Shown in pieces: positions 19,456-32,092 of a stretch of DNA of 64,000 bases; the stretch's first letter is position 1; each line of letters begins with the position of its first letter. Under the pieces are notes generated by a model that ran no database searches, was not told the DNA's origin, and saw nothing but the letters and a program-made list of their open reading frames with translations. The stretch comes from Pseudomonas sp. SST3 (GTDB lineage: Bacteria; Pseudomonadota; Gammaproteobacteria; Pseudomonadales; Pseudomonadaceae): NCBI RefSeq assembly GCF_003325755.1, contig NZ_QORI02000012.1, positions 1 to 64,000 of the forward strand, given 5' to 3'. The position numbers and the translations under genes were made by a program.

Positions 19456-20349
19456 ATGAGCAACTGGCTGGTAGACAAGCTGATCCCTTCGATCATGCGC
19501 TCGGAAACGCAGAAAAGCTCAGTGCCCGAAGGCCTGTGGCACAAGTGTCCGTCATGCGAGGCGGTGCTGTATCGTCCGGAGCTGGAGAAAACGCTGGATG
19601 TCTGCCCGAAATGCCAGCACCACATGCGTATCGATGCGCGCGCGCGTCTGGATATCTTTCTCGACAAGGAAGGGCGCGAAGAAATTGGCGCCGACCTCGA
19701 GCCTGTCGACCGTCTGAAGTTTCGTGATAGTAAAAAGTACAAGGATCGCCTCTCCGCGGCACAAAAGCAGACCGGTGAAAAGGATGCGCTGATCGCGATG
19801 CGCGGGACCCTGATGCACATGCCCGTCGTGGCCTGTGCGTTCGAGTTCTCCTTCATGGGCGGCTCCATGGGCGCGATCGTCGGCGAGCGCTTCGTTCGTG
19901 CTGCCAATGCTGCGCTTGAGCAGCGCTGCCCGCTGGTCTGTTTCGCCGCTTCCGGCGGTGCCCGGATGCAGGAAGCTTTGATCTCTCTCATGCAGATGGC
20001 GAAAACGTCCGCTGTGCTGGCGAGGATGCGTGAAGAAGGGTTGCCCTTCATCTCTGTGCTAACCGACCCGGTATACGGCGGCGTGTCGGCCAGTCTGGCC
20101 ATGCTTGGCGATGTCATCGTCGCGGAGCCCAAGGCACTGATCGGCTTTGCTGGGCCTCGGGTAATCGAGCAGACCGTGCGTGAGAAGCTTCCGGAAGGGT
20201 TCCAGCGCAGTGAGTTCCTGCTTGATCATGGTGCTATCGATCTGATAATTCCGCGCGCCGAGCTGCGCGCTCGTCTATCTCGTCTTCTGGCGCAGATGCA
20301 GCAGCTGCCGACCCCTGCGGAACCTGCTCGGGTGACGGCTGACGCATGA
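19456..20349 (+). CDS. accD: acetyl-CoA carboxylase, carboxyltransferase subunit beta
   Basis: Transfers CO2 from carboxybiotin to acetyl-CoA with AccA, the first step of fatty-acid synthesis. 297 residues. The N-terminal zinc finger is intact: Cys31, Cys34, Cys50, Cys53 (CPSC...CPKC). The crotonase-like core contains [12 protein letters not shown] and [11 protein letters not shown] at 19456 ([12 protein letters not shown]) follows GGAG; a GTG 15 bases earlier is less likely. It overlaps folC by 4 bp (ATGA). Confidence 0.97.
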
Positions 20350-21650
20350 TCCGGCGGAGCCTGCAGGATTGGCTTGATTACCTCGAGCAGCTGCATCCTA
20401 CCGCGATCGATATGGGCCTTGATCGCTGCCGTATGGTGGCGACGAGGCTCGGGCTTACCCGTCCGGCTCCTCAGGTCGTAACCGTCACTGGAACCAACGG
20501 CAAGGGCTCAACCTGCGCTTTTATCGCGCAGATGCTGGCCGGGCAGGGCAAAACCGTGGGCGTTTACAGCTCACCGCATCTGCTGCGCTACAACGAACGC
20601 GTGCGTCTCAACGGGACCGATGCCAGCGACGATGCGCTGTGCGAGGCGTTCGATGCGGTTGAACGCGCCCGCGGCTCCATTTCCCTGACCTATTTCGAAA
20701 TGGGTACGCTGGCCGCCTTCTGGCTCTTCGAGCGTGAGGCGCTGGACGCCGTGGTGCTGGAGGTCGGCCTCGGCGGGCGTCTCGATGCGGTAAACCTGGT
20801 CGATGCGGATGTGGCGGTGGTCACCAATATCGGTCTGGATCACGCCGAATGGCTTGGCACCACGCGCGAGAGCGTGGCGTTCGAAAAAGCCGGAATATTT
20901 CGTTCAGCAAAGCCTGCCGTATGCGGTGACCCCGCCCCGCCGGCTACCATGTTGGACTATGCAACGCAGTCGGCTGCCCCCTTGCTCGTGCGTGGGCGCG
21001 ATTTCGATCTTGAGAAAGACGCCGGCTGTTGGCACTGGCACGGAAAGAACGGGGCCGGTGATCCGTTGGCGCTCAGTAATCTGCCGATGCTCGCGTTGCC
21101 GCTGGAAAACGCGGCGCTGGCGTTGCAGGCATTTGCACTACTCGAATCATTCTGGCAGCCGGATCGATTAATCGATGCGTTGCAGAATACTCGGGTTACG
21201 GGGCGGCTGGACCGCCGAGCGATCCGTTGGAGGGGCCATGATCTGTCGATACTGCTCGACGTCGGGCACAATCCGCACGCCGCCGCCTATCTGGCCCGGC
21301 AACTCCAGTTGCAGGCGAAGCCTGGACGCAGGCTCGCGGTGTTCGGTCTACTGGCAGACAAGGATCTGACTGGCGTGCTCGATGAAATGCTGCCGGTTGT
21401 GGACGCCTGGGCGGTTGCCCCACTGCAAACGCCTCGCTCGCGCACTGCGGGTGAGCTGAGTTCGGTATTGATGGAGAGGGGCGCGGAGGTCACTATCTAT
21501 CCGGGGATAGCTCGGGCGCTTGAGCAGCAGTGCGATCAGGCTGTTGAGGGCGACGAGATAGTTCTGTTCGGATCTTTTTATTGCGTGGCTGAAGCGCTGG
21601 CCTGGCTTGATCTGCACGCAGCGAATGGAGGGCATGGTCTTGGTGGATAA
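20346..21650 (+). CDS. folC: bifunctional folylpolyglutamate/dihydrofolate synthase
   Basis: Adds glutamate to folates and, in bacteria, makes dihydrofolate from dihydropteroate. 434 residues. P-loop GTNGKGS at 49-55, the metal-binding ligase motifs around [12 protein letters not shown] and [12 protein letters not shown], and the C-terminal Mur-ligase domain with DVGHNPHAA. Its start overlaps the accD stop, and its end overlaps the SPOR gene start by 17 bp, so the three are one tightly packed operon. Confidence 0.96.
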
Positions 21651-22260
21651 GGGATTGATGCAGCGTATCGTCGGCGCGCTTGTGCTTGTTGCGCTGGCCG
21701 TAATATTCGTTCCGATGCTTTTCAACCGTGAAGATGCTAGCCCGCGGGTTGCTGTGGATGCACCGGCCATGCCCGAAACGCCGGCTGCGCCGGCGATCGA
21801 GCTGCAGCCTGTCGAAGTGCCCGAGCCTGAGGTTGAGCCTGTCCCCGAAGAGTTCGAGATCGTGGAGGAGGGACCGGTAGCCGAGCCTGATGCGGCCCCT
21901 GCACCCATCGATCCTGCTCCGGTCCTCGTCGAGCCAGAGTCCGGTGCTAAACCGGCTACTGCCCAGGCGCAGCCGGTCACTCCGGAAGCGACGGAAGAAA
22001 AACGACTGGACACGGCGAACCTACCAGTCAGCTGGTCGGTTCAGCTGGCAAGTCTGTCCAATCGCGAGAACGCCGAAAAGCTGCAGAAGACGCTGCGCTC
22101 TCAGGGCTATAACGCTTATATCCGCACTGCAGACGGGATGAATCGTGTCTTCGTTGGGCCGTTGGTGGAGCGGGCGGAAGCCAATCGCCTTCGTGATCAG
22201 TTGCAGCGACAGCAGAAACTGGACGGCTTCGTCGTGCGCTTTAAACCTGAGTCGGGCTGA
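21634..22260 (+). CDS. SPOR-domain inner-membrane protein
   Basis: 208 residues: a short cytoplasmic N-terminus, one transmembrane helix at about 10-28 (GALVLVALAVIFVPMLF), a long Pro/Glu/Ala-rich periplasmic linker, and a C-terminal SPOR domain (about 132-206) that in this family binds denuded septal peptidoglycan. ATG at 21634 ([11 protein letters not shown]) with GGAG is chosen; it lies inside the end of folC. The SPOR domain is 41/76 identical to the C-terminal domain of the GspD at 25872-28145. Confidence 0.9.
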   Translation: MVLVDKGLMQRIVGALVLVALAVIFVPMLFNREDASPRVAVDAPAMPETPAAPAIELQPVEVPEPEVEPVPEEFEIVEEGPVAEPDAAPAPIDPAPVLVEPESGAKPATAQAQPVTPEATEEKRLDTANLPVSWSVQLASLSNRENAEKLQKTLRSQGYNAYIRTADGMNRVFVGPLVERAEANRLRDQLQRQQKLDGFVVRFKPESG

Positions 22261-22391: not shown

Positions 22392-22904
22392 GTGACATTC
22401 ACCTGGGTCGATTGGGCGTTTATCGCCGTTGTGGTCATTTCCAGCCTGATCAGTCTGAAGCGCGGTTTCGTCAAAGAGGCGCTTTCCCTGCTTACCTGGA
22501 TCATTGCGGGCGTCGTCGCCTGGATGTTCGGTGGCGCGCTGTCTCACCATCTTGCCGAGTTCATCAGTACGCCTTCGTTTCAAGTCATCGCGGCATGCGC
22601 AATTCTTTTCATCGTGACGTTGCTGGTCGGCGCGCTGGTCAACTTTCTCATCGGAGAGCTGGTTCGGGTAACCGGTCTGTCTGGCACGGATCGCTTTCTC
22701 GGAATGGTGTTTGGTGCGGCTCGAGGTGGGTTGCTGATCGTGGTGTTGGTTGGTCTGCTTAGCCTCGCTCCTGTCCAGCAGGACCCCTGGTGGCGTGAAT
22801 CGACACTGCTGCCGCATTTTTTGTTGGTTGCCGATTGGTCAAAGAACCTGATCCTCGGGTTTGGAAGCCAATGGGTCGCCGGCTCGCTCGACGCTTCCAG
22901 CTGA
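22392..22904 (+). CDS. cvpA: CvpA-family membrane protein
   Basis: Colicin V production protein homologue: a small inner-membrane protein of 170 residues with about four transmembrane helices (near 5-25, 32-50, 65-88 and 103-125). The characteristic SLKRGFVKEALSLLTWI and GLSGTDRFLGMVFGAARG loops are present. It starts with GTG. In Proteobacteria it lies upstream of purF, as here (87 bp away). Its biochemical role is not firmly known. Confidence 0.93.
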   Translation: MTFTWVDWAFIAVVVISSLISLKRGFVKEALSLLTWIIAGVVAWMFGGALSHHLAEFISTPSFQVIAACAILFIVTLLVGALVNFLIGELVRVTGLSGTDRFLGMVFGAARGGLLIVVLVGLLSLAPVQQDPWWRESTLLPHFLLVADWSKNLILGFGSQWVAGSLDASS

Positions 22905-22991: not shown

Positions 22992-24497
22992 ATGTGTGGC
23001 ATTGTCGGCATCGTCGGTAAGTCGAACGTCAATCAGGCGTTGTATGACGCGCTTACCGTACTGCAACACCGTGGGCAGGATGCAGCCGGAATCGTGACCA
23101 GCGACGGCGGCAAGCTGTTCCTGCGCAAGGATAACGGGCTGGTCCGCGACGTTTTTCAGCAGCGTCACATGCAGCGTCTGGTCGGCAACATGGGGATTGG
23201 TCATGTGCGCTATCCCACCGCGGGCAGCTCCAGCTCGGCGGAGGCGCAGCCGTTCTATGTGAACTCCCCGTATGGCATCACCCTGGCGCATAACGGCAAC
23301 CTGACCAACGTTGATCAACTGACCAAAGAGATCTACGAATCCGACCTGCGCCATGTGAACACCAATTCCGATTCGGAGGTGCTGCTCAACGTATTCGCGC
23401 ACGAGCTGGCGGTGCGCGGCAAGCTGCAGCCCACCGAGGAAGATGTATTCGCGGCGGTGGCAAAGGTGCATGAGCGGTGTGTGGGTGGCTACGCGGTTGT
23501 CGCCATGGTGACCGGTTATGGCATTGTTGGCTTCCGCGATCCGCATGCAATTCGCCCGATCGTGTTCGGCCAGCGCCATACTGAACAGGGCGTCGAATAT
23601 ATGATTGCGTCCGAGAGCGTTGCCCTGGACGTGCTGGGCTTCTCGCTGATCCGCGATCTGGCGCCGGGCGAAGCGGTCTACATCACTTCGGACGGCAAGT
23701 TGCACACCCGCCAGTGCGCATCCAGCCCTCATTACGCGCCCTGCATCTTCGAGCATGTCTATCTGGCGCGTTCCGACTCCCTGATGGACGGCGTTTCGGT
23801 GTACAAGGCGCGTCTGCGGATGGGCGAGAAGCTGGCGGACAAGATTCTCCGTGAGCGCCCTGATCACGATATCGATGTCGTCATCCCGATCCCCGACACA
23901 AGCCGCACGGCAGCGCTGGAACTGGCCAACCGCTTAGGCGTGAAGTTCCGTGAAGGCTTCGTCAAGAACCGCTATATCGGTCGGACCTTCATCATGCCGG
24001 GTCAGGCGGCACGCAAGAAATCGGTTCGGCAGAAGCTCAACGCCATCGATCTCGAATTCCGCGGCAAGAACGTCATGCTGGTGGACGACTCTATCGTGCG
24101 CGGTACCACCTGTAAGCAGATCATTCAGATGGCCCGCGAGGCGGGTGCGAAGAATGTCTATTTCTGTTCCGCTGCGCCGGCAGTCCGTTACCCGAACGTC
24201 TATGGTATCGACATGCCCAGCGCGCATGAGCTCATTGCCCATGACCGCAGCACTGAAGAAGTCGCCGAGTTGATCGGCGCCGACTGGCTGGTCTATCAGG
24301 ATCTTCCAGACCTTATCGATGCGGTCGGTGGCGGTAAGGTGAAGATCGAGAACTTCGATTGCGCGGTATTCGATGGCAAATATGTGACCGGCGATATCGA
24401 TGATGCCTACCTGCATAAAATCGAGCAGGCACGTAACGATCTGAGTAAGAACCAGGGCGTTGCGAGCAACGCCATTATCGACCTGTACAACAACTGA
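22992..24497 (+). CDS. purF: amidophosphoribosyltransferase
   Basis: First committed step of purine synthesis: PRPP plus glutamine to phosphoribosylamine. 501 residues. The N-terminal glutamine amidotransferase domain has the nucleophile Cys2 (MCGIVGIVG), exposed after Met removal, then HVRYPTAG and the HNGNLTN block; the C-terminal phosphoribosyltransferase domain carries the PRPP loop [13 protein letters not shown]. No cysteine cluster for an Fe-S centre is apparent, as in the E. coli-type enzyme. Confidence 0.97.
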
Positions 24498-24544
24498 TCG
24501 ACAACCCGGCGGCGTTGCCGCCCTGGCTCAGGATGCGAACGACT

Positions 24545-25756
24545 ATGACAACCGACTGGGACGCTGGCCGGCTGGACAGTGATTTGTCCGGCGTAGGCAT
24601 GGATACATTGGCTGTGCGTGCGGGCCAGCATCGCTCACCCGAGGCTGAGCACGGCGAACCGCTTTTCTTCACGTCTAGCTATGTGTTTCGTAGCGCCGCC
24701 GATGCCGCAGCACGTTTTGCCGGCGAAGTGCCGGGAAATGTCTACTCGCGCTATACCAACCCCACCGTGCGCGCATTCGAAGAACGTATCGCTGCCATGG
24801 AGGGCGCCGAGCAGGCCGTGGCGACTGCCTCTGGCATGGCCGCGATCCTGGCAACGGTGATGAGTCTGTGCTCGGCCGGTGATCATGTGTTGGTTTCGCG
24901 GAGCGTCTTCGGTGCAACAGTTTCGCTGTTCGAAAAATACCTGAAGCGCTTCGGTCTGGAAGTCGACTACGTTCCGCTCACCGAGGTCGGCGTTTGGGAG
25001 CCCGCATTCAAGCCCAACACCCGCCTGGTCTTTGTCGAATCTCCGTCCAATCCGCTCGCTGAGTTGGTTGACATCGAGGCCTTGGCATCGCTCTGTCACG
25101 CCAAAGGCGCCATGCTGGCGGTGGACAACTGCTTTTGTACGCCGGTGTTGCAACAGCCGCTGGCGCTCGGGGCCGATATTGTCATCCACTCGGCGACCAA
25201 ATACATCGACGGTCAGGGTCGTTGCCTGGGTGGCGTGGTTGCCGGCCGAGCCGAGCAGATGAAGGAGGTCGTGGGTTTCCTGCGCACAGCGGGTCCTACG
25301 CTGAGTCCGTTCAACGCCTGGGTATTTCTCAAAGGGCTGGAAACGCTGCGGCTGCGCATACAAGCCCATTGCGCCAGTGCGCAGGCATTGGCCGAGTGGC
25401 TTGAGCAGCAACCGGGTGTGGAGAAGGTCTACTACGCCGGGCTGCCCAGCCACCCGCAACATGAGCTGGCCAAGCGGCAACAGAAAGGCTTCGGTGCGGT
25501 GCTGAGCTTCGAAGTGGCGGGGGGCAAGGAGGGGGCCTGGCGTTTCATCGATGCGACTCGATTGATTTCCATCACCGCCAATCTGGGTGACAGCAAGTCC
25601 ACTATCACCCATCCGGGCTCGACCACTCATGGACGGCTCTCGCCGGAAGACCGTGCGAACGCGGGTATTCGTGACAGCCTGATCCGCGTGGCGGTGGGCC
25701 TGGAGGACGTAGCCGATCTGAAGGCTGATCTTGCTCGAGGGCTGGCGGCGCTCTGA
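24545..25756 (+). CDS. metZ: O-succinylhomoserine sulfhydrylase
   Basis: PLP enzyme making homocysteine directly from O-succinylhomoserine and sulfide in methionine synthesis. 403 residues. Cys/Met-metabolism family motifs: YSRYTNPTV, SGMAAILA, the PLP-binding Lys219 in HSATKYIDGQGR, and the C-terminal ITHPGSTTHGRL. ATG at 24545 gives MTTDWDAGRLD; upstream in-frame starts are rejected. It is 47 bp after purF, the same adjacency seen in P. aeruginosa. Confidence 0.93.
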   Translation: MTTDWDAGRLDSDLSGVGMDTLAVRAGQHRSPEAEHGEPLFFTSSYVFRSAADAAARFAGEVPGNVYSRYTNPTVRAFEERIAAMEGAEQAVATASGMAAILATVMSLCSAGDHVLVSRSVFGATVSLFEKYLKRFGLEVDYVPLTEVGVWEPAFKPNTRLVFVESPSNPLAELVDIEALASLCHAKGAMLAVDNCFCTPVLQQPLALGADIVIHSATKYIDGQGRCLGGVVAGRAEQMKEVVGFLRTAGPTLSPFNAWVFLKGLETLRLRIQAHCASAQALAEWLEQQPGVEKVYYAGLPSHPQHELAKRQQKGFGAVLSFEVAGGKEGAWRFIDATRLISITANLGDSKSTITHPGSTTHGRLSPEDRANAGIRDSLIRVAVGLEDVADLKADLARGLAAL

Positions 25757-25871: not shown

Positions 25872-28145
25872 TCAATTATCCGCGCCTTCGAAGTTCACTA
25901 CGAAGCCGTCCAGGCGTTGTTCTTCGGAAAGCTGCTCGCGGAGTCGGTTGGCTTCCTGTCGCTGGTCAGTGGGCCCTACGAAAACGCGGTGAGTACGGCC
26001 CGTGGTTCTGATATAGGCATCGAAGCCTTCAGCGCCGAGTTTCTCCTGCAACGCCTCGGCGCTATTGCGGTCCTGCAGACTGGCGACCTGTACTGCCCAG
26101 CCCGAACGTAACGATGTCTGCTCGCGGGATTGTTGCGCCTGTGGCGCGTAAGTGTCCGGTGCGCGTCGAGTTGCCGGAGCGTCGGGGACGGCACGTCGCT
26201 GAGCCGGTTCGTTGGAGCGGAGATCAATGGCCGGCGCCGGTTGACCCTGACCGTCGAACAAACGTTCGGGCGTGGCGGGGAGGATACTCGGGCTATTCGA
26301 CCCGGTTTCGATAACCCGGATGTCGCTGTATTTCTTGCCGGAAAGCGCCGCCAGGCCCGCCCGATCCCGGATGACGGTCGGGCGGAGGAACACCATGAGG
26401 TTGCGTTTGACATGGGTTTCCTGGGTGGAGCGGAACAGCGCGCCGAGCCAGGGTATGTCTCCCAGCAGCGGTACCTTCGAGTCGGTCCGGGTCACGTCAT
26501 CCTGAATGAGGCCGCCCAGCACGATTACCTGGCCATCCTCCGCAAGAATGGTGCTCTTGATCGAACGCTTGTTGGTCACCAGGTCGACGGCCTGCGCCGA
26601 CAGGCTTGCCGATGGAGCGATCGATGAGATTTCCTGCTCGATTTCCAGGCGCAGCGTTGCGCCATCGTTGATATGCGGCACCACTTTGAGCGTTACGCCG
26701 ATATCCTCCCGCTCGATAGTCGTGAACGGGTTGTTGGCCCCGGACGAATCGGTCGTGTAGCTGCCAGTCTGAAACGGAACGTTCTGCCCGACGAGAATTT
26801 CTGCTTCTTGGTTGTCCAGTGTCAGCAGGCTTGGGGTCGATAGCAGGTTGCTCTTGCTGTTAGCGGAAAGGGCGGTGATCAACGCGCCGAAGCTACGTGT
26901 GCCCAGACCAATGATGGCGCCGTCGGGCAGTTCGTTGGGAATATCATCCTCTCTGATTGCATTGAGCACGCTACCGACGGAAATACCGGTATTGCCGAAG
27001 CTGACCCCGCCAGCACCACCGGTGCTGCCACGAGCGTCTACCGCCCATTGCACGCCGAGCGCGTCAGTGATATCGCCGGAGACTTCGACAATGGCAGCCT
27101 CCACCATCACCTGCGCGCGGGGAATATCGAGCTGGCGCACTATGGATTCAAGCGTGCCGATCAGCTCGGGTTCGGCGAGCATGACCAGCGCATTGAGGCT
27201 CTCGTCTGCGCGAATGAGTATGTCCTGCTGCCGCCCCCCCTGAGTTTCGCCATCGGCAGGTGCTGCGAGGCCCTCGGAAATGTCGCCAAGGGTCTCAGCC
27301 AGCGACTTGGCGTCGTTGTGGCGCAGGCGAATGACTCGCGTGTTGGCCGAGCGTGTGCTCGGCGTATCGAGTGTTTTTGCCAGGCTGGCGAGCTTCTGCC
27401 GCGCCTGTTCCGGACCAGTGAAAATAAGCCGGTTGGTGCGCGAATCGGCGATGATCTGTGCACCTGCCGTGTCTCGCGCTTCGCCACGAGCCAGGGTGTT
27501 GCGCAGCACCTCAGCAATGTCCACGGCCCAGCCATATTGCAGGTTGACCACGCTGTGGTCGTCGGTCTGGGCTTGGTCCAGCTGGCGAACCAGATCCTCG
27601 ATGCGAGCGATGTTGGCGCTGCGGTCGCTGATGATCAATGCATTGGCTGAGCCGACGGCGGCGAGATGGCCATATTGCGGCACGAGTGGGCGAATCAGTG
27701 GAATCAGCTCGGTGGCCGAGGTGTGCTGAACCTGGATCACCCGGGTTTCCAGCAGGTCACCGCCCGTTGGCCCGCCACCGGCCTCCGATTTCGCTTCGGC
27801 GTTAGGCACGATTCGCGCAACTTCCCCTTGCGTCAGCACGCTGTAGCCGTGGGTCGCCATGACGGACAGGAACAGCTGATATACCTCGGATAGCGAAAGG
27901 GTCGTCGACGACACGACGCTGACCTGCCCTTTCACGCGCGGGTCGACGATGAAGGTCTGCCCGGTCAGCTGGCTGATCTGATCGACGAAGGCCCGAATAT
28001 CGGCGTCCTTGAGATTGATCGTCCAACCGTCCTGTTGGGTTTCGCTCGGCTCAATTCCGGGATCCGCCGCCAACAGGGGCAGGGGAGCGGCAAGCAGACC
28101 GGCGGTGAGCAACGCAATGAGCGGGCGGGAGGAAAAAGGCAGCAT
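25872..28145 (-). CDS. gspD: type II secretion secretin GspD with C-terminal SPOR domain
   Basis: Outer-membrane secretin of the general secretion pathway (XcpQ type). 757 residues against about 650-660 for P. aeruginosa XcpQ. Signal peptide 1-26 (cleaved after LLAA), N0 domain about 40-110, N1-N3 about 120-370, and the secretin core to about 600 (VPFQTGSY, VTLKVVPHIN, IVLGGLIQDD). A Pro/Gln/Arg-rich linker then leads to a complete SPOR domain at about 681-753 (WAVQVASLQDRNSAEAL to LDGFVVNF). SPOR domains bind septal peptidoglycan; on a secretin, in place of the usual short C-terminal pilotin segment, this is unusual. It lies 3 bp after gspC and is encoded away from any other gsp gene. Confidence 0.93.
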   Translation of the reverse strand: MLPFSSRPLIALLTAGLLAAPLPLLAADPGIEPSETQQDGWTINLKDADIRAFVDQISQLTGQTFIVDPRVKGQVSVVSSTTLSLSEVYQLFLSVMATHGYSVLTQGEVARIVPNAEAKSEAGGGPTGGDLLETRVIQVQHTSATELIPLIRPLVPQYGHLAAVGSANALIISDRSANIARIEDLVRQLDQAQTDDHSVVNLQYGWAVDIAEVLRNTLARGEARDTAGAQIIADSRTNRLIFTGPEQARQKLASLAKTLDTPSTRSANTRVIRLRHNDAKSLAETLGDISEGLAAPADGETQGGRQQDILIRADESLNALVMLAEPELIGTLESIVRQLDIPRAQVMVEAAIVEVSGDITDALGVQWAVDARGSTGGAGGVSFGNTGISVGSVLNAIREDDIPNELPDGAIIGLGTRSFGALITALSANSKSNLLSTPSLLTLDNQEAEILVGQNVPFQTGSYTTDSSGANNPFTTIEREDIGVTLKVVPHINDGATLRLEIEQEISSIAPSASLSAQAVDLVTNKRSIKSTILAEDGQVIVLGGLIQDDVTRTDSKVPLLGDIPWLGALFRSTQETHVKRNLMVFLRPTVIRDRAGLAALSGKKYSDIRVIETGSNSPSILPATPERLFDGQGQPAPAIDLRSNEPAQRRAVPDAPATRRAPDTYAPQAQQSREQTSLRSGWAVQVASLQDRNSAEALQEKLGAEGFDAYIRTTGRTHRVFVGPTDQRQEANRLREQLSEEQRLDGFVVNFEGADN

Positions 28146-28148
28146 CAG

Positions 28149-28793
28149 TCAGTTGTCTTCCGTGGGCTGTTCGTCGGTGGGCATGGATTCTGGCGGGCTG
28201 GCTGCCCCTTCCATCTGTTGGCGGAGGGCTTCCATCTGTTGTTGAAGCATCTCCGCTTGCGGATCGAGTGGCCCCGTTTCCGCTGGTTCACTGTAGTCCG
28301 GGAGGTTGTCGGGTACAGCCGTCGCGGAGCGAACACTCGGAAAATACAGGCTTTCGAGGCGACCGCCGCGCATTACTTCGACTCGGTCCGGATGGACACT
28401 GTGCAAGCTCACACCCGGTTCCAGTTCCTCTTCGACCCGATAGAGCTGTGGAGGTTGGCCGCTCAGCTGGATGATCGCCGTTGACCGAGATGGATCGGCA
28501 TGAACGAAGCTGCCCAACAAGGTTAGATCAGAACTCGACGCATCGGGTGCATAGCTTTGGCCGGACGAGGCAGCTGTACCGAACAGACTCTCCATGCGCT
28601 GCAGATCAGGAGCGACGCCAGCGGGTTGGCCGCTGTCCGTGACGGCCGCAGGGGGTGTCCGGGTAAGCTGCAACCAATCGCTGATCTGGCCGGCAAGATA
28701 GAGCCCGAAGAGCACGACGATGGCGACGCTTGCAATCAATGGCGCATGCTGGCGAACTTTCTGCACTGCTGCGGGTGAAGCCAAGCGAGGCAC
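28149..28793 (-). CDS. gspC: type II secretion inner-membrane protein GspC
   Basis: XcpP-type connector between the inner-membrane platform and the secretin. 214 residues: one transmembrane helix at about 18-36, a linker, and the GspC homology region (about 85-165: LTLLGSFVHADPSRSTAIIQLSGQPPQLYRVEEELEPGVSL...VEVMRGGRLESLYFP). There is no PDZ domain; the C-terminus is a Gln/Glu/Met-rich coiled-coil-like stretch (about 188-205), as in Xcp-type proteins. The start is GTG at 28793, poorly supported because GGAG is too close; the true start may differ by a few codons. gspE-M would normally be divergent here but are absent. Confidence 0.88.
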   Translation of the reverse strand: MPRLASPAAVQKVRQHAPLIASVAIVVLFGLYLAGQISDWLQLTRTPPAAVTDSGQPAGVAPDLQRMESLFGTAASSGQSYAPDASSSDLTLLGSFVHADPSRSTAIIQLSGQPPQLYRVEEELEPGVSLHSVHPDRVEVMRGGRLESLYFPSVRSATAVPDNLPDYSEPAETGPLDPQAEMLQQQMEALRQQMEGAASPPESMPTDEQPTEDN

Positions 28794-28980
28794 TCCGTGA
28801 AACTGATGATGATGGCCGTGATCGCAAGCGCGGCATCAGCCGCCTGCGAACCATTGTGCGTCCCGGCAGTCTAGACCGGGTCCATGACAAAGAAGCACCT
28901 GAGTATGCCAGTGCAACTGACTGTTTTTCAGGCAAAAGGTGCCCGGCATGTCGTCATTTCCAAGCGTGATTGCAATTGGC

Positions 28981-29005
28981 CGTTTTTTTTTTGACAAAAA
29001 AAACG
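28981..29005. repeat. poly-T/poly-A hairpin
   Basis: CG, ten T, GAC, eight A, CG: a near-perfect AT-only stem upstream of the tRNA-Asp promoter. It could act as an UP element, a bidirectional U-tract terminator remnant, or simply bent DNA. Confidence 0.5.
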
Positions 29006-29015
29006 TAGCGTGCGG

Positions 29016-29044
29016 TTGACTTGATCCCTGGGGGTGCGTAAATT
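29016..29044 (+). promoter_or_regulatory. sigma-70 promoter of tRNA-Asp
   Basis: TTGACT (29016-29021), 17-base spacer, TAAATT (29039-29044), followed by a GCGCGC discriminator typical of stringently controlled stable-RNA promoters. Confidence 0.75.
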
Positions 29045-29133
29045 GCGCGCCTCGCAAGGTGATCAGCCAGCTGGCTTCTCGGTAGAGAGCTACGATGCAG
29101 GCTTTGCGAATCGGACGAAAGTCCGGCCGACGC

Positions 29134-29210
29134 GCAGCGGTAGTTCAGTCGGTTAGAATACCGGCCTGTCACGCCGGGGGTCGCGGGTTCGAGTCCCGTC
29201 CGCTGCGCCA
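29134..29210 (+). tRNA. tRNA-Asp (GTC)
   Basis: 77 nt with encoded CCA. The 7-bp acceptor stem GCAGCGG/CCGCTGC, anticodon GTC in CCTGTCACG, and T-loop GGTTCGAGTCC closely match bacterial tRNA-Asp. It stands alone, with its own promoter and terminator. Confidence 0.96.
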
Positions 29211-29251
29211 CATATTTCTTCCAGGCAACTGAACGCCAGGAAGTCTCGCTG

Positions 29252-29276
29252 AAAGCGGCCTTAGGGCCGCTTTTTT
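29252..29276 (+). terminator. tRNA-Asp terminator
   Basis: AAAGCGGCC stem with its complement GGCCGCTTT around a short TTAG loop, then TTT. Confidence 0.85.
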
Positions 29277-29642
29277 CGTTTCTATATCTCCGTTTGCCAC
29301 CGCTCAATTTTCCAGGCTGTGCTGACGACCTTGCCTGATTTTCTTTTCCCGTCCGGAAGGTGGCTCAGCCGCCTGCATCGCTTCGAATCTCGAAAAATTT
29401 ACCCGCGATCAATCGCCTCTTCGTTCTCGAATCGCTACGGCAGCACACCCGCCAACGCTGCCCCGCCTATGTTTCATGGGGGCTTCTTCGCATTCGCGAA
29501 AGCATGGCTGACTCTCTTCGTTTAGCAGGTTGCGGCGAGCGGTCACGGTGATCAGAGCGCACCCTTGTGCTTTCCTGCTGTCCTTAATGCGTGACGACAT
29601 CAATACGCCAGGGGCACGCGGCTAACTGACGAGGGGTCTTTA
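29277..29642. other. 366-bp upstream region of the cytochrome bd operon
   Basis: No gene supported; short frames lack ribosome sites. It presumably carries the promoter of the oxidase operon. I looked for an Anr/Fnr box (TTGAT-N4-ATCAA) and did not find a good one. Confidence 0.45.
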
Positions 29643-31082
29643 ATGTTCGGTTTGGAAGCTCTCGAGCTTGCGCGGATCCAATTCGCTTTCACTATTTCTT
29701 TCCACATCATCTTTCCGGCGATCACCATCGGACTGGCCAGTTTTCTAGCCGTACTGGAAGGGTTGTGGCTGAAGACCAAACGTCAGGTCTATCGCGACCT
29801 CTACCATTTCTGGATGAAGATCTTCGCCGTCAACTTCGGGATGGGCGTGGTTTCCGGCATCGTCATGGCCTACCAGTTTGGTACCAATTGGAGCGCTTTT
29901 TCGGAGTTTGCCGGCAGCGTCACTGGGCCTTTGCTGGCTTATGAGGTGCTCACCGCGTTTTTCCTTGAGGCTGGATTTCTCGGCGTCATGCTGTTTGGCT
30001 GGAACCGCGTCGGTCCTGGGCTGCACTTCTTTTCAACGCTTATGGTGGCCGTCGGCACGCTAATTTCCACATTCTGGATTCTCGCTTCGAACAGCTGGAT
30101 GCACACCCCTCAGGGCCACGAGATTATCGATGGCATTGTGGTGCCGGTGGACTGGTTCGCTATCGTGTTCAACCCGTCGTTCCCTTATCGGTTGACGCAT
30201 ATGGCGATTGCGGCGTTCCTGGCTACGGCATTCATGGTTGGTGCTTCGGCGGCCTGGCATTTACTGCGTGGGCGAGACAATCCCGCGGTCCGCAAGATGT
30301 TTTCCATGGCGATGTGGATGGCACTGATAGTCGCGCCGATCCAGGCCGTGGTTGGCGATTTTCATGGTCTGAATACGCTTGAACACCAACCCGCAAAAAT
30401 CGCCGCGATGGAAGGGCACTGGGACAATTCCTCCGGCGAGCCGACGCCGCTGTTGCTGTTTGGCTGGCCGGACATGGAGCGTGAGGAAACTCGCTTCAAG
30501 GTTGAAATTCCCTACCTGGGCAGCCTGATTCTCAAGCACAGCCTGACCGAGCCGATTCCGGCGCTAAAGGATTTCCCTCCGGAGGACCGGCCCAACTCGA
30601 CAATCGTGTTCTGGACCTTCCGTGTGATGGTCGCGCTGGGCTTTTTGATGATTTTTACCGGGCTGTGGAGTCTGTGGCTTCGCCGCAGCGGCAGGCTTTA
30701 CCTGTCTCGCCCATTCCTGCGTCTGACGCTGTGTATGGGACCCTCCGGGCTAATCGCCATTCTGGCGGGCTGGTTCACCACCGAGATTGGCCGTCAGCCC
30801 TGGGTGGTCTACGGCGTGATGCGCACCGCAGACGCGGTCTCCAACCATGGCGCTGAACAGCTCGGCCTGACCCTGGCGATGTTCGTGTTGATCTACTTTG
30901 CAGTGTTCGGCATCGGCTTCGTCTATGTGCTGCGGCTGATTGCGAAGGGACCGGTGATAAACGAGGGCAACGAGAAGGGCGCCGGCGGGCCCGGTGAAAA
31001 GCGCACGCCGATGCGGCCACTATCCGCCGCTGACGAGGCGATTCCCCACGAACATGGCGATCAACTGGGCGAGAGGAATTGA
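29643..31082 (+). CDS. cioA: cytochrome bd ubiquinol oxidase subunit I, CIO type
   Basis: Quinol-oxidising, heme-bearing subunit of the cyanide-insensitive terminal oxidase in the inner membrane. 479 residues with about nine transmembrane helices. Conserved features: the first heme-ligand His in FTISFHIIFPAITIG, the QFGTNW segment with GSVTGPLLAYEVLTAFFLEAGFLG, the short Q-loop around GDFHGLNTLEHQPAKIAAMEGHW (short loop = CIO-type), and GWFTTEIGRQPWVVYG. Start ATG. It overlaps the region just before cioB; the operon continues with cioB and the DUF2474 gene. Confidence 0.94.
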   Translation: MFGLEALELARIQFAFTISFHIIFPAITIGLASFLAVLEGLWLKTKRQVYRDLYHFWMKIFAVNFGMGVVSGIVMAYQFGTNWSAFSEFAGSVTGPLLAYEVLTAFFLEAGFLGVMLFGWNRVGPGLHFFSTLMVAVGTLISTFWILASNSWMHTPQGHEIIDGIVVPVDWFAIVFNPSFPYRLTHMAIAAFLATAFMVGASAAWHLLRGRDNPAVRKMFSMAMWMALIVAPIQAVVGDFHGLNTLEHQPAKIAAMEGHWDNSSGEPTPLLLFGWPDMEREETRFKVEIPYLGSLILKHSLTEPIPALKDFPPEDRPNSTIVFWTFRVMVALGFLMIFTGLWSLWLRRSGRLYLSRPFLRLTLCMGPSGLIAILAGWFTTEIGRQPWVVYGVMRTADAVSNHGAEQLGLTLAMFVLIYFAVFGIGFVYVLRLIAKGPVINEGNEKGAGGPGEKRTPMRPLSAADEAIPHEHGDQLGERN

Positions 31083-31084
31083 AT

Positions 31085-32092
31085 ATGGGTGTCGATCTTT
31101 CGCTGATCTGGGCCGTCATCATCATCTTCGGCATCATGATGTACGTGGTGATGGATGGCTTCGATCTGGGTATTGGAATTCTTTTCCCGTTTCTTGCCGA
31201 CAGTTCCGAACGCGACGTGGCGATGAATACGGTGGCGCCGATCTGGGACGGCAACGAAACCTGGTTGGTGCTGGGTGGAGCCGGATTGTTCGCCGCCTTT
31301 CCGCTGGCCTACTCGGTGGTGCTTTCCGCGTTGTATCTACCGATCATCTTCATGTTGATGGGGCTGATTTTTCGTGGAGTCGCCTTCGAGTTCCGCTTCA
31401 AGGCCAGCGCCGCGCGCCAGCACATCTGGGACAAGGCGTTTATCGGTGGCTCACTGGCGGCGACCTTTTTTCAAGGTGTCGCGCTAGGCGCTTTCATCCA
31501 CGGGTTCCCGGTGGTTGACCGCGCCTATGCTGGCGGCCCACTGGATTGGTTGACACCCTTTTCAGTGTTTTGCGGCGTAGCCCTGATCGCCGCCTACGCC
31601 CTGTTGGGCTGCACCTGGCTAATCATGAAAACGGGCGGTGCATTGCAGAGACGTATGCATGATATTGGCGTCCCGTTGGTCTGGGCGGTGCTGGCGGTGA
31701 CCGGGATCGTAAGTATCTGGACCCCGTTGACGCATCCGGACATCGCCGAGCGCTGGTTCAGCACGCCGAATCTGTTCCTCTTCATGCCAGTACCAATTCT
31801 GGTGTTGCTGTGCACCTTCGGGCTGCTACGGTCGATCGCACGCTACGCTCACTATTCGCCGTTCCTGTTCACACTCGCCCTCATTTTCCTGGGCTACAGC
31901 GGCCTGGGTATCAGCCTCTGGCCAAACATCATTCCGCCATCGGTCAGCATTTGGGACGCCGCCTCGCCACCGCAGAGTCAGGGTTTCACCCTCGTCGGGG
32001 CACTGCTGATCATCCCGCTGATCCTCATGTACACCGCATGGAGCTACTACGTGTTCCGCGGCAAGGTCAGCGCTGAAGATGGCTACCACTGA
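31085..32092 (+). CDS. cioB: cytochrome bd ubiquinol oxidase subunit II
   Basis: Second subunit of the CIO/bd oxidase. 335 residues with about eight to nine transmembrane helices. Family motifs: VMDGFDLGIGILFPF near the N-terminus, WDGNETWLVLGGAGLFAAFPLAY, and the C-terminal GFTLVGALLIIPLILMYTAWSYYVFRGKV. ATG at 31085 is chosen over a TTG two codons earlier because of spacing from GAGAGGAA. It begins 2 bp after cioA. Confidence 0.94.
   Translation: MGVDLSLIWAVIIIFGIMMYVVMDGFDLGIGILFPFLADSSERDVAMNTVAPIWDGNETWLVLGGAGLFAAFPLAYSVVLSALYLPIIFMLMGLIFRGVAFEFRFKASAARQHIWDKAFIGGSLAATFFQGVALGAFIHGFPVVDRAYAGGPLDWLTPFSVFCGVALIAAYALLGCTWLIMKTGGALQRRMHDIGVPLVWAVLAVTGIVSIWTPLTHPDIAERWFSTPNLFLFMPVPILVLLCTFGLLRSIARYAHYSPFLFTLALIFLGYSGLGISLWPNIIPPSVSIWDAASPPQSQGFTLVGALLIIPLILMYTAWSYYVFRGKVSAEDGYH

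Follow-up and report, generated by a model that had tools for sequence, protein, structure and literature searches.

A C-terminal DedD-type SPOR domain on a type II secretion secretin suggests a tie to the cell wall in Stutzerimonas

Introduction

How a 15-mer secretin crosses the peptidoglycan and comes to be attached to it, and what determines the location of type II secretion systems (T2SSs), are unsettled questions. A gspD gene in a 64,000-nucleotide stretch of Pseudomonas sp. SST3 (contig NZ_QORI02000012.1; the whole stretch analyzed is called the window here) raises both of them again: its secretin ends in a SPOR domain, and a second SPOR gene lies 3.6 kb away in the opposite orientation. 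Where did this domain come from, and what would it do on an outer-membrane channel? According to passages of PMC9239104, secretins elsewhere are linked to the wall through GspA/GspB, or through the AMIN domains of PilQ together with TsaP in the case of type IV pili, and a section of PMC5285504 describes the recruitment of type IV pilus machinery to future division sites. In parts of PMC9239104 and PMC6617341, the T2SS secretin LspD of Legionella is described as having SPOR at its N-terminus, and in 2022 a passage of PMC9239104 called it the only T2SS secretin known with SPOR. Here we describe the architecture, conservation, predicted fold, domain kinship, and insertion point of the SPOR domain in the window GspD.

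Results

The coding features of the locus are collected in Table 1. Along the 757-residue GspD, Pfam placed N0 (43-112), three Secretin_N domains, Secretin (425-593), and SPOR (681-750). The SPOR model (PF05036) scored 61.7 bits (cut-off 21, E 8e-17) and the GspD equivalog TIGR02517 of NCBIfam scored 535.7 bits (cut-off 351.35), so that secretin and SPOR models both lay above their cut-offs on this protein. The first-pass annotation, made from the letters of the DNA, had called a complete SPOR domain at the end of a T2SS secretin with about 100 extra residues; both calls are borne out, the extra residues numbering 114. Short relatives of the window GspD have the C-terminus ...AIDLRQ, i.e., ...FDGQGEPAPAIDLRQ or a close variant, followed by a stop, so the 114 residues behind AIDLR (linker, SPOR domain, and short tail) form an extension of the ancestral C-terminus. 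The SPOR domain was added directly behind this end, which is intact. A frame error or assembly joint behind the fusion was ruled out by one open frame in 31 distinct sequences. A liposecretin of the HxcQ type also was rejected: none of the 757 residues is a cysteine, hence there is no lipobox cysteine and lipid self-piloting is excluded.

Table 1. Features of the window around gspD and the neighboring SPOR gene.
Feature	Position	Strand	Evidence or remark
gspD with C-terminal SPOR, xcpQ type; 757 aa, coordinates include the stop	25872..28145	-	single open frame, Pfam, NCBIfam
SPOR domain (residues 681-750; positions calculated from residue numbers)	25896..26105	-	Pfam, predicted fold, Foldseek
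Linker rich in Pro/Ala/Gln, residues 644-679	26109..26216	-	sequence, dN/dS 0.48
Ancestral C-terminus AIDLR, residues 639-643	26217..26231	-	stop of short relatives one to a few codons on
gspC, upstream partner of gspD	28149..28793	-	Pfam T2SSC (PF11356) 67.7 bits
SPOR protein of DedD type (208 aa), flanked by folC and the cvpA-like gene	21634..22260	+	Pfam SPOR 2.7e-19
folC	20346..21650	+	NCBIfam
cvpA-like	22392..22904	+	NCBIfam PRK10845 124 bits, below cut-off 264
purF	22992..24497	+	NCBIfam
metZ (O-succinylhomoserine sulfhydrylase)	24515..25756	+	convergent with gspD, 115 bp between stops

In the stretch 28149-32092, cydAB-like genes lie beyond gspC. The close relative G001 gave eight matches to PF00437 (T2SSE), none of them on the gspD contig, so the T2SS genes seem to be split in Stutzerimonas; in G008 one T2SSE match lies 2.5 kb from a secretin-domain match.

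Structure prediction for the whole protein was poor (mean pLDDT 47.9) and confident only over the SPOR domain, so it does not predict the place of this domain relative to the channel; the low values of the linker (pLDDT <40) carry little meaning, as residues 405-678 are mostly as poor. The SPOR domain itself was predicted as beta-alpha-beta-beta-alpha-beta, both in the whole-protein model (pLDDT 84-89) and when folded alone with 18 rows. Three Foldseek matches in the PDB lay below E 0.001, to the SPOR domains of CwlC (7e-5) and P. aeruginosa RlpA (9e-4), and the RlpA matches included structures with and without denuded glycan. E. coli DedD (6ztg) was matched at E 1.7e-3, and the weak matches to FtsN (0.026) and DamX (0.08) were interspersed with other folds of the ferredoxin-like kind. 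By sequence, the best PDB match of the window GspD was 5wln (915 bits, query 33-634, 15 chains), whose chain we take to be P. aeruginosa XcpQ; the window protein resembles XcpQ over this range, but the match ends before the linker and SPOR domain.

The SPOR protein encoded between folC and the cvpA-like gene is called DedD type here, a name that we gave it from its gene neighborhood. Its best NCBIfam scores (ftsN 40.6, RlpA 39.8, and DedD 37.3 bits) all fell below the cut-offs of the respective models, that of the DedD equivalog PRK11633 being 150 bits, and the DedD-type protein L082 of genome G001 showed the same pattern. BLASTP aligned GspD with the neighbor at 48 identical positions of 99 (E 3e-26), and the two SPOR domains were 57.7% identical over 71 columns, which gives the same 41 shared positions that had been counted by eye at the outset. 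Their local alignment score of 215 is far above those of 500 shuffles (mean 25, maximum 47), so the likeness is not due to chance. Four SPOR-type profiles were built in this analysis, and the window domain scored 93.1 bits with the DedD type versus 15.7 with RlpA, 12.7 with FtsN, and 2.1 with DamX. Mean pair scores were 205.7 for the DedD type versus 60.8, 45.2, and 30.8 for the RlpA, FtsN, and DamX types, the names of the 17 comparison domains of these last three types having been assigned from sequence and frame length. When seven representatives were compared with NCBIfam, the RlpA domains exceeded a subfamily cut-off (2/2), the two FtsN domains had ftsN as best model and the two DamX domains had DamX as best cell-division model, each below cut-off, and the seventh was L082. 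Judged by these scores, the window GspD SPOR domain is of the DedD type, the kind of its neighbor; an FtsN, RlpA, or DamX type as its source was ruled out by profile and pair scores alike.

From such similarity, it had been proposed that the secretin gained its SPOR domain by duplication of the neighboring gene. The kinship with the SPOR family of the neighbor stands. Descent from the neighbor itself is less well placed, with free trees leaning against it and a topology test compatible with it. Our SPOR trees started from 153 matches and rest on a domain alignment of only 74 columns with long branches. The 107-row tree was built without identical rows, copies of G461, and the distant rows L167-L169 and L171-L173; the 78-row tree was thinned from it by taking out L166, L075, and near-identical rows. 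In both, the Stutzerimonas DedD-type domains held together without the GspD domains (89/75 with 107 rows and 89/86 with 78), which were placed beside them and, in the 107-row tree, beside domains of other genera. One starred branch of the free 78-row tree (95/85) has every DedD-type row on one side and every GspD row on the other. The 30 Stutzerimonas GspD SPOR domains formed one group in 98% of bootstrap trees of the 107-row set, at a branch test of only 45, and in 92% with the thinned set. After the distant FtsN, RlpA, and DamX domains were added, the GspD SPOR domains no longer occupied one side of a branch (three changes), with long branches intruding.

These free trees would fit a domain that stems not from the gene 3.6 kb away but from the DedD-type gene of a different lineage of Pseudomonadaceae, acquired either by transfer or at a time before Stutzerimonas existed. 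The separate grouping of the Stutzerimonas DedD-type rows and the starred branch speak for such an origin, as does G461, a genome on the sister branch of Stutzerimonas that also has a GspD with a DedD-type SPOR domain. Against it, free placement is weak with 74 columns and long branches, and the approximately unbiased (AU) test on the 78-row set did not reject uniting the GspD domains in a single clade with those of the Stutzerimonas DedD type (p 0.71). The tree held to this clade scored 10.6 log units above the free tree, so the free search was not optimal. We give this account of the origin, and of the origin only, slightly less than an even chance; the neighbor gene itself as the source would be compatible with the same data. 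A recent copy from the neighbor is excluded, as the own DedD-type gene is hardly closer to the GspD SPOR domain than those of other genomes (DNA identity 0.600, n = 31, versus 0.590, n = 930), and its rank in closeness varies anywhere from 1 to 28 of 31. The same DNA comparison of 31 sequences gave no sign of continuing gene conversion between the two.

The SPOR form of the window GspD is conserved across much of Stutzerimonas. By frame length and aligned range, 30 of the 56 genomes carry the SPOR form and 22 the short form, and four are uninformative (one partial gene, three without a match at threshold). A database search with residues 640-757 returned 51 proteins including that of the window, all with SPOR and Secretin domains and, where sources were named, from Stutzerimonas, Pseudomonas, or a Pseudomonadota MAG. 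A genome scan found 17 loci with GspD-SPOR and 63 without among 80 kept of 131. In SPOR inventories taken from the genomes of relatives, the window domain had a match in 297 of 298 Pseudomonadaceae genomes. Two matches were present in each of the 30 SPOR-form genomes and, outside the 56 Stutzerimonas, only in G461, G490, G635, and G665. The second match is a GspD with SPOR in G461 (Pfam 1.8e-11) and a small protein in the other three. This G461 GspD (L174:6463-8856, minus strand), outside Stutzerimonas, is a 798-residue frame with a DedD-type C-terminal SPOR domain, and G434 (L175), of the same genus, has a short GspD. The small proteins of G635, G665, and G490 (L171, L172, and L173) are 216-250 aa long with a C-terminal SPOR domain and, by eye, a lipoprotein-like N-terminus.

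More widely, a GspD match was found in 210 of 369 Gammaproteobacteria, and of the matches listed only two, from the Stutzerimonas genomes G001 and G053, have alignments that extend into SPOR. In forty further GspD tails, hand-picked mostly for long frames, E values against the SPOR profiles did not fall below 0.42. One gammaproteobacterial GspD (L207:2-1048, plus strand) has a 189-residue tail that looked AMIN-like by eye, an identity we dropped because Pfam had no match there. G046 and G018 carry second, more distant GspD genes (L142 and L143; 38-40% identity) without a SPOR match.

We followed the history of the two forms with GspD core trees, one of 60 of 81 rows and a best-sampled one of 53 hand-chosen rows, and with a MetZ-PurF tree (48 of 59 rows). 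Both core trees divide the short-form GspD into two groups within Stutzerimonas, which indicates that a T2SS can do without SPOR. The SPOR domain is present in the early-branching L025 and L128, with a linker recognizably common by eye. Counted by hand on the best-sampled tree, one gain and two losses take three steps inside Stutzerimonas versus four for separate gains. The MetZ-PurF tree puts L025 outside Stutzerimonas with P. indica (86/75) and forces three changes, so transfer or a second gain at L025 is possible; for G461, a gain of its own costs the same as a common gain with loss in G434. Allele exchange between species is a further alternative for the pattern, as the short forms terminate at the ancestral stop. 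No convincing SPOR remnant was found downstream of the stop in 14 short-form loci (best tblastn E 3.5). Two short-form genomes gave four SPOR matches (G006) and five, one of them weak at 7e-4 (G007), so we see no clear replacement of the GspD domain in these two.

A different SPOR type occurs on paralogous secretins. Two SPOR-form Stutzerimonas genomes, G044 and G028, encode a second GspD (P0122 and L141) that is 63% identical to that of the window and also ends in SPOR. The P0122 domain (Pfam 1.8e-9) scored 31.2 bits with the DamX profile, 6.3 with FtsN, and 0.1 with the DedD type. A search of 398 Pseudomonadaceae genomes gave 13 matches whose alignment reached at least position 768 of 779, and inspection of 20 regions found a SPOR-like tail in 15 (L178-L192) and none in five (L193-L197). 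Pfam scores for six of the tails were above the SPOR cut-off for L182, L186, L188, and L189 and below it for L185 and L187; for each of the 15, the DamX profile ranked first (14.4-32.5 bits). The P0122 tail retrieved four database proteins, all with SPOR and Secretin domains, the one with a named source being from Stutzerimonas. In the best-sampled core tree, a single branch of low support (61) sets the GspD rows with DamX-type tails apart from the others. With two SPOR types at the same end of GspD, the DedD-type and DamX-type tails are best read as separate captures. As a side observation, the contact Gln discussed below is kept, by eye, in nine of the 17 DamX-type tails (L140 and L141 included) and replaced by K, R, A, or N in the other eight (tails of L140:174-2510 on the minus strand, L141, and L178-L192).

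Selection on the window-type domain was estimated from Nei-Gojobori dN/dS values, computed with our own script for 68 pairs with core dS of 0.1 to 0.9 that share branches and are not independent. The median dN/dS rose from 0.079 in the core to 0.207 in SPOR and 0.48 in the linker, the SPOR value being rough at a median dS of 1.06, near saturation; SPOR evolves faster than the GspD core. Nevertheless, SPOR dN was smaller than dS in 67 of 68 pairs. W683, Q686, G724, and P725 are invariant in all 31 distinct GspD-SPOR sequences, that of the window included, and S689 and R720 are each kept in 29. The phmmer alignment to FtsN (1uta) pairs Q686, S689, and R720 with Gln, Ser, and Arg of the VQCGS and WNRV motifs, and we matched the FtsN numbering to 1uta residues by motif. 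Parts of PMC6895207 link FtsN Q251, S254, and R285 to glycan binding, with RlpA Q270 and R309 corresponding, and report there that septal localization was unaffected in FtsN S254A.

The faster evolution of SPOR than of the core, the loss of R720 in two of the 31 GspD-SPOR sequences, and the absence of SPOR from GspD in 22 of the 56 Stutzerimonas genomes would all suit a domain that is now a passive passenger or stability tag, its glycan binding irrelevant and the secretin being placed by GspC, FimV, or others as in SPOR-less relatives. We consider this unlikely, because Q686 and W683 are unchanged throughout, dN lies below dS in nearly every pair, and a paralogous GspD carries a C-terminal SPOR domain of another type.

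Another function to be weighed is that of the pilotin. In passages of PMC6532946 on other species, pilotins bind the S-domain, which is located after the secretin domain. The window extension starts next to this site and the protein lacks a lipobox, points that would agree with an extension replacing the pilotin: monomers held at the wall near the outer membrane would reach a higher local concentration and insert without a pilot lipoprotein. The AspS-family pilotin (PF16549) was found in none of the 56 Stutzerimonas genomes, with the control found in E. coli. This agrees with replacement too, but AspS is missing from SPOR and short-form genomes alike, so the presence of SPOR does not track an AspS pilotin. 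P. aeruginosa XcpQ, moreover, functions without SPOR. Replacement of the pilotin is improbable in our judgment.

Discussion

Our favored reading, held with somewhat more confidence than doubt, is that an Xcp-type T2SS secretin was extended in Stutzerimonas ancestry by a linker and a DedD-type SPOR domain that would serve as a peptidoglycan anchor and positioning tag on the 15-mer. Each GspD subunit would have its S-domain end at the outer membrane, on the periplasmic side, and a C-terminal extension should be periplasmic given that pilotins bind the S-domain. A 15-mer could then carry as many as 15 SPOR domains, each tethered by ~36 residues. These domains would grip glycan strands lacking stem peptides, and the avidity of many of them would hold the channel to the cell wall. 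Assembly may be favored at the septum and young poles, where peptide-free strands abound. The SPOR-form secretin of Stutzerimonas, as its sequence suggests, may tie itself to the cell wall, and a location at division sites, septum or poles, is plausible. This reading is backed by the retained contact residues, the fold match to RlpA SPOR with denuded glycan, and the SPOR domain of another type on a paralogous GspD; against it weigh the short form in 22 of 56 Stutzerimonas genomes, the faster evolution of SPOR, the loss of R720 in two sequences, and the contact Gln being kept in only nine of 17 DamX-type tails.

DedD is a small inner-membrane protein of cell division. The window domain shares its SPOR type with the neighbor and its predicted fold with E. 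coli DedD, but it hangs on an outer-membrane channel. Legionella LspD and the window protein are both T2SS secretins that carry SPOR in their own chain, a domain that in LspD is thought, by the same passages as above, to link the secretin to peptidoglycan; unlike in LspD, where those passages place SPOR before N0, the window domain follows the end of the S-domain. PilQ AMIN domains, TsaP, and GspA/GspB, as described in the excerpts cited in the Introduction, also tie a secretin channel to peptidoglycan, but by other domains or partner proteins. XphA/XqhA of P. aeruginosa are encoded outside the xcp locus according to a portion of PMC6567927. XqhA, like P0122 and L178-L192, is a second GspD, and it is a guess on our part that the paralogs with a DamX-type domain, which the window protein with its DedD type is not, are XqhA.

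No report of a C-terminal SPOR domain on a secretin was found in the open full-text literature, subscription papers and preprints being outside the scope of the search. Precomputed Pfam lists already mark SPOR in such secretins, and the architecture is therefore annotated but, as far as found, without discussion in the literature. GspD with a C-terminal SPOR domain is a new arrangement of two known modules and modestly novel.

SPOR was probably brought to the secretin C-terminus twice in Pseudomonadaceae. A bolder and rather doubtful proposal, which we put forward tentatively, is that at least two captures of a division SPOR domain onto a T2SS secretin C-terminus in this family (DedD type on Stutzerimonas XcpQ, DamX type on a paralogous GspD) let the channel read peptide-free septal glycan, build at the division site, and inherit young poles without GspAB or a pilotin. 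The two types suggest that domains of division proteins have been reused by secretion machines more than once. With SPOR and short forms in one genus, nature offers matched versions of a single machine that differ in having or lacking a wall-binding tag, and the interest of these secretins lies in a direct test of how secretins meet the cell wall.
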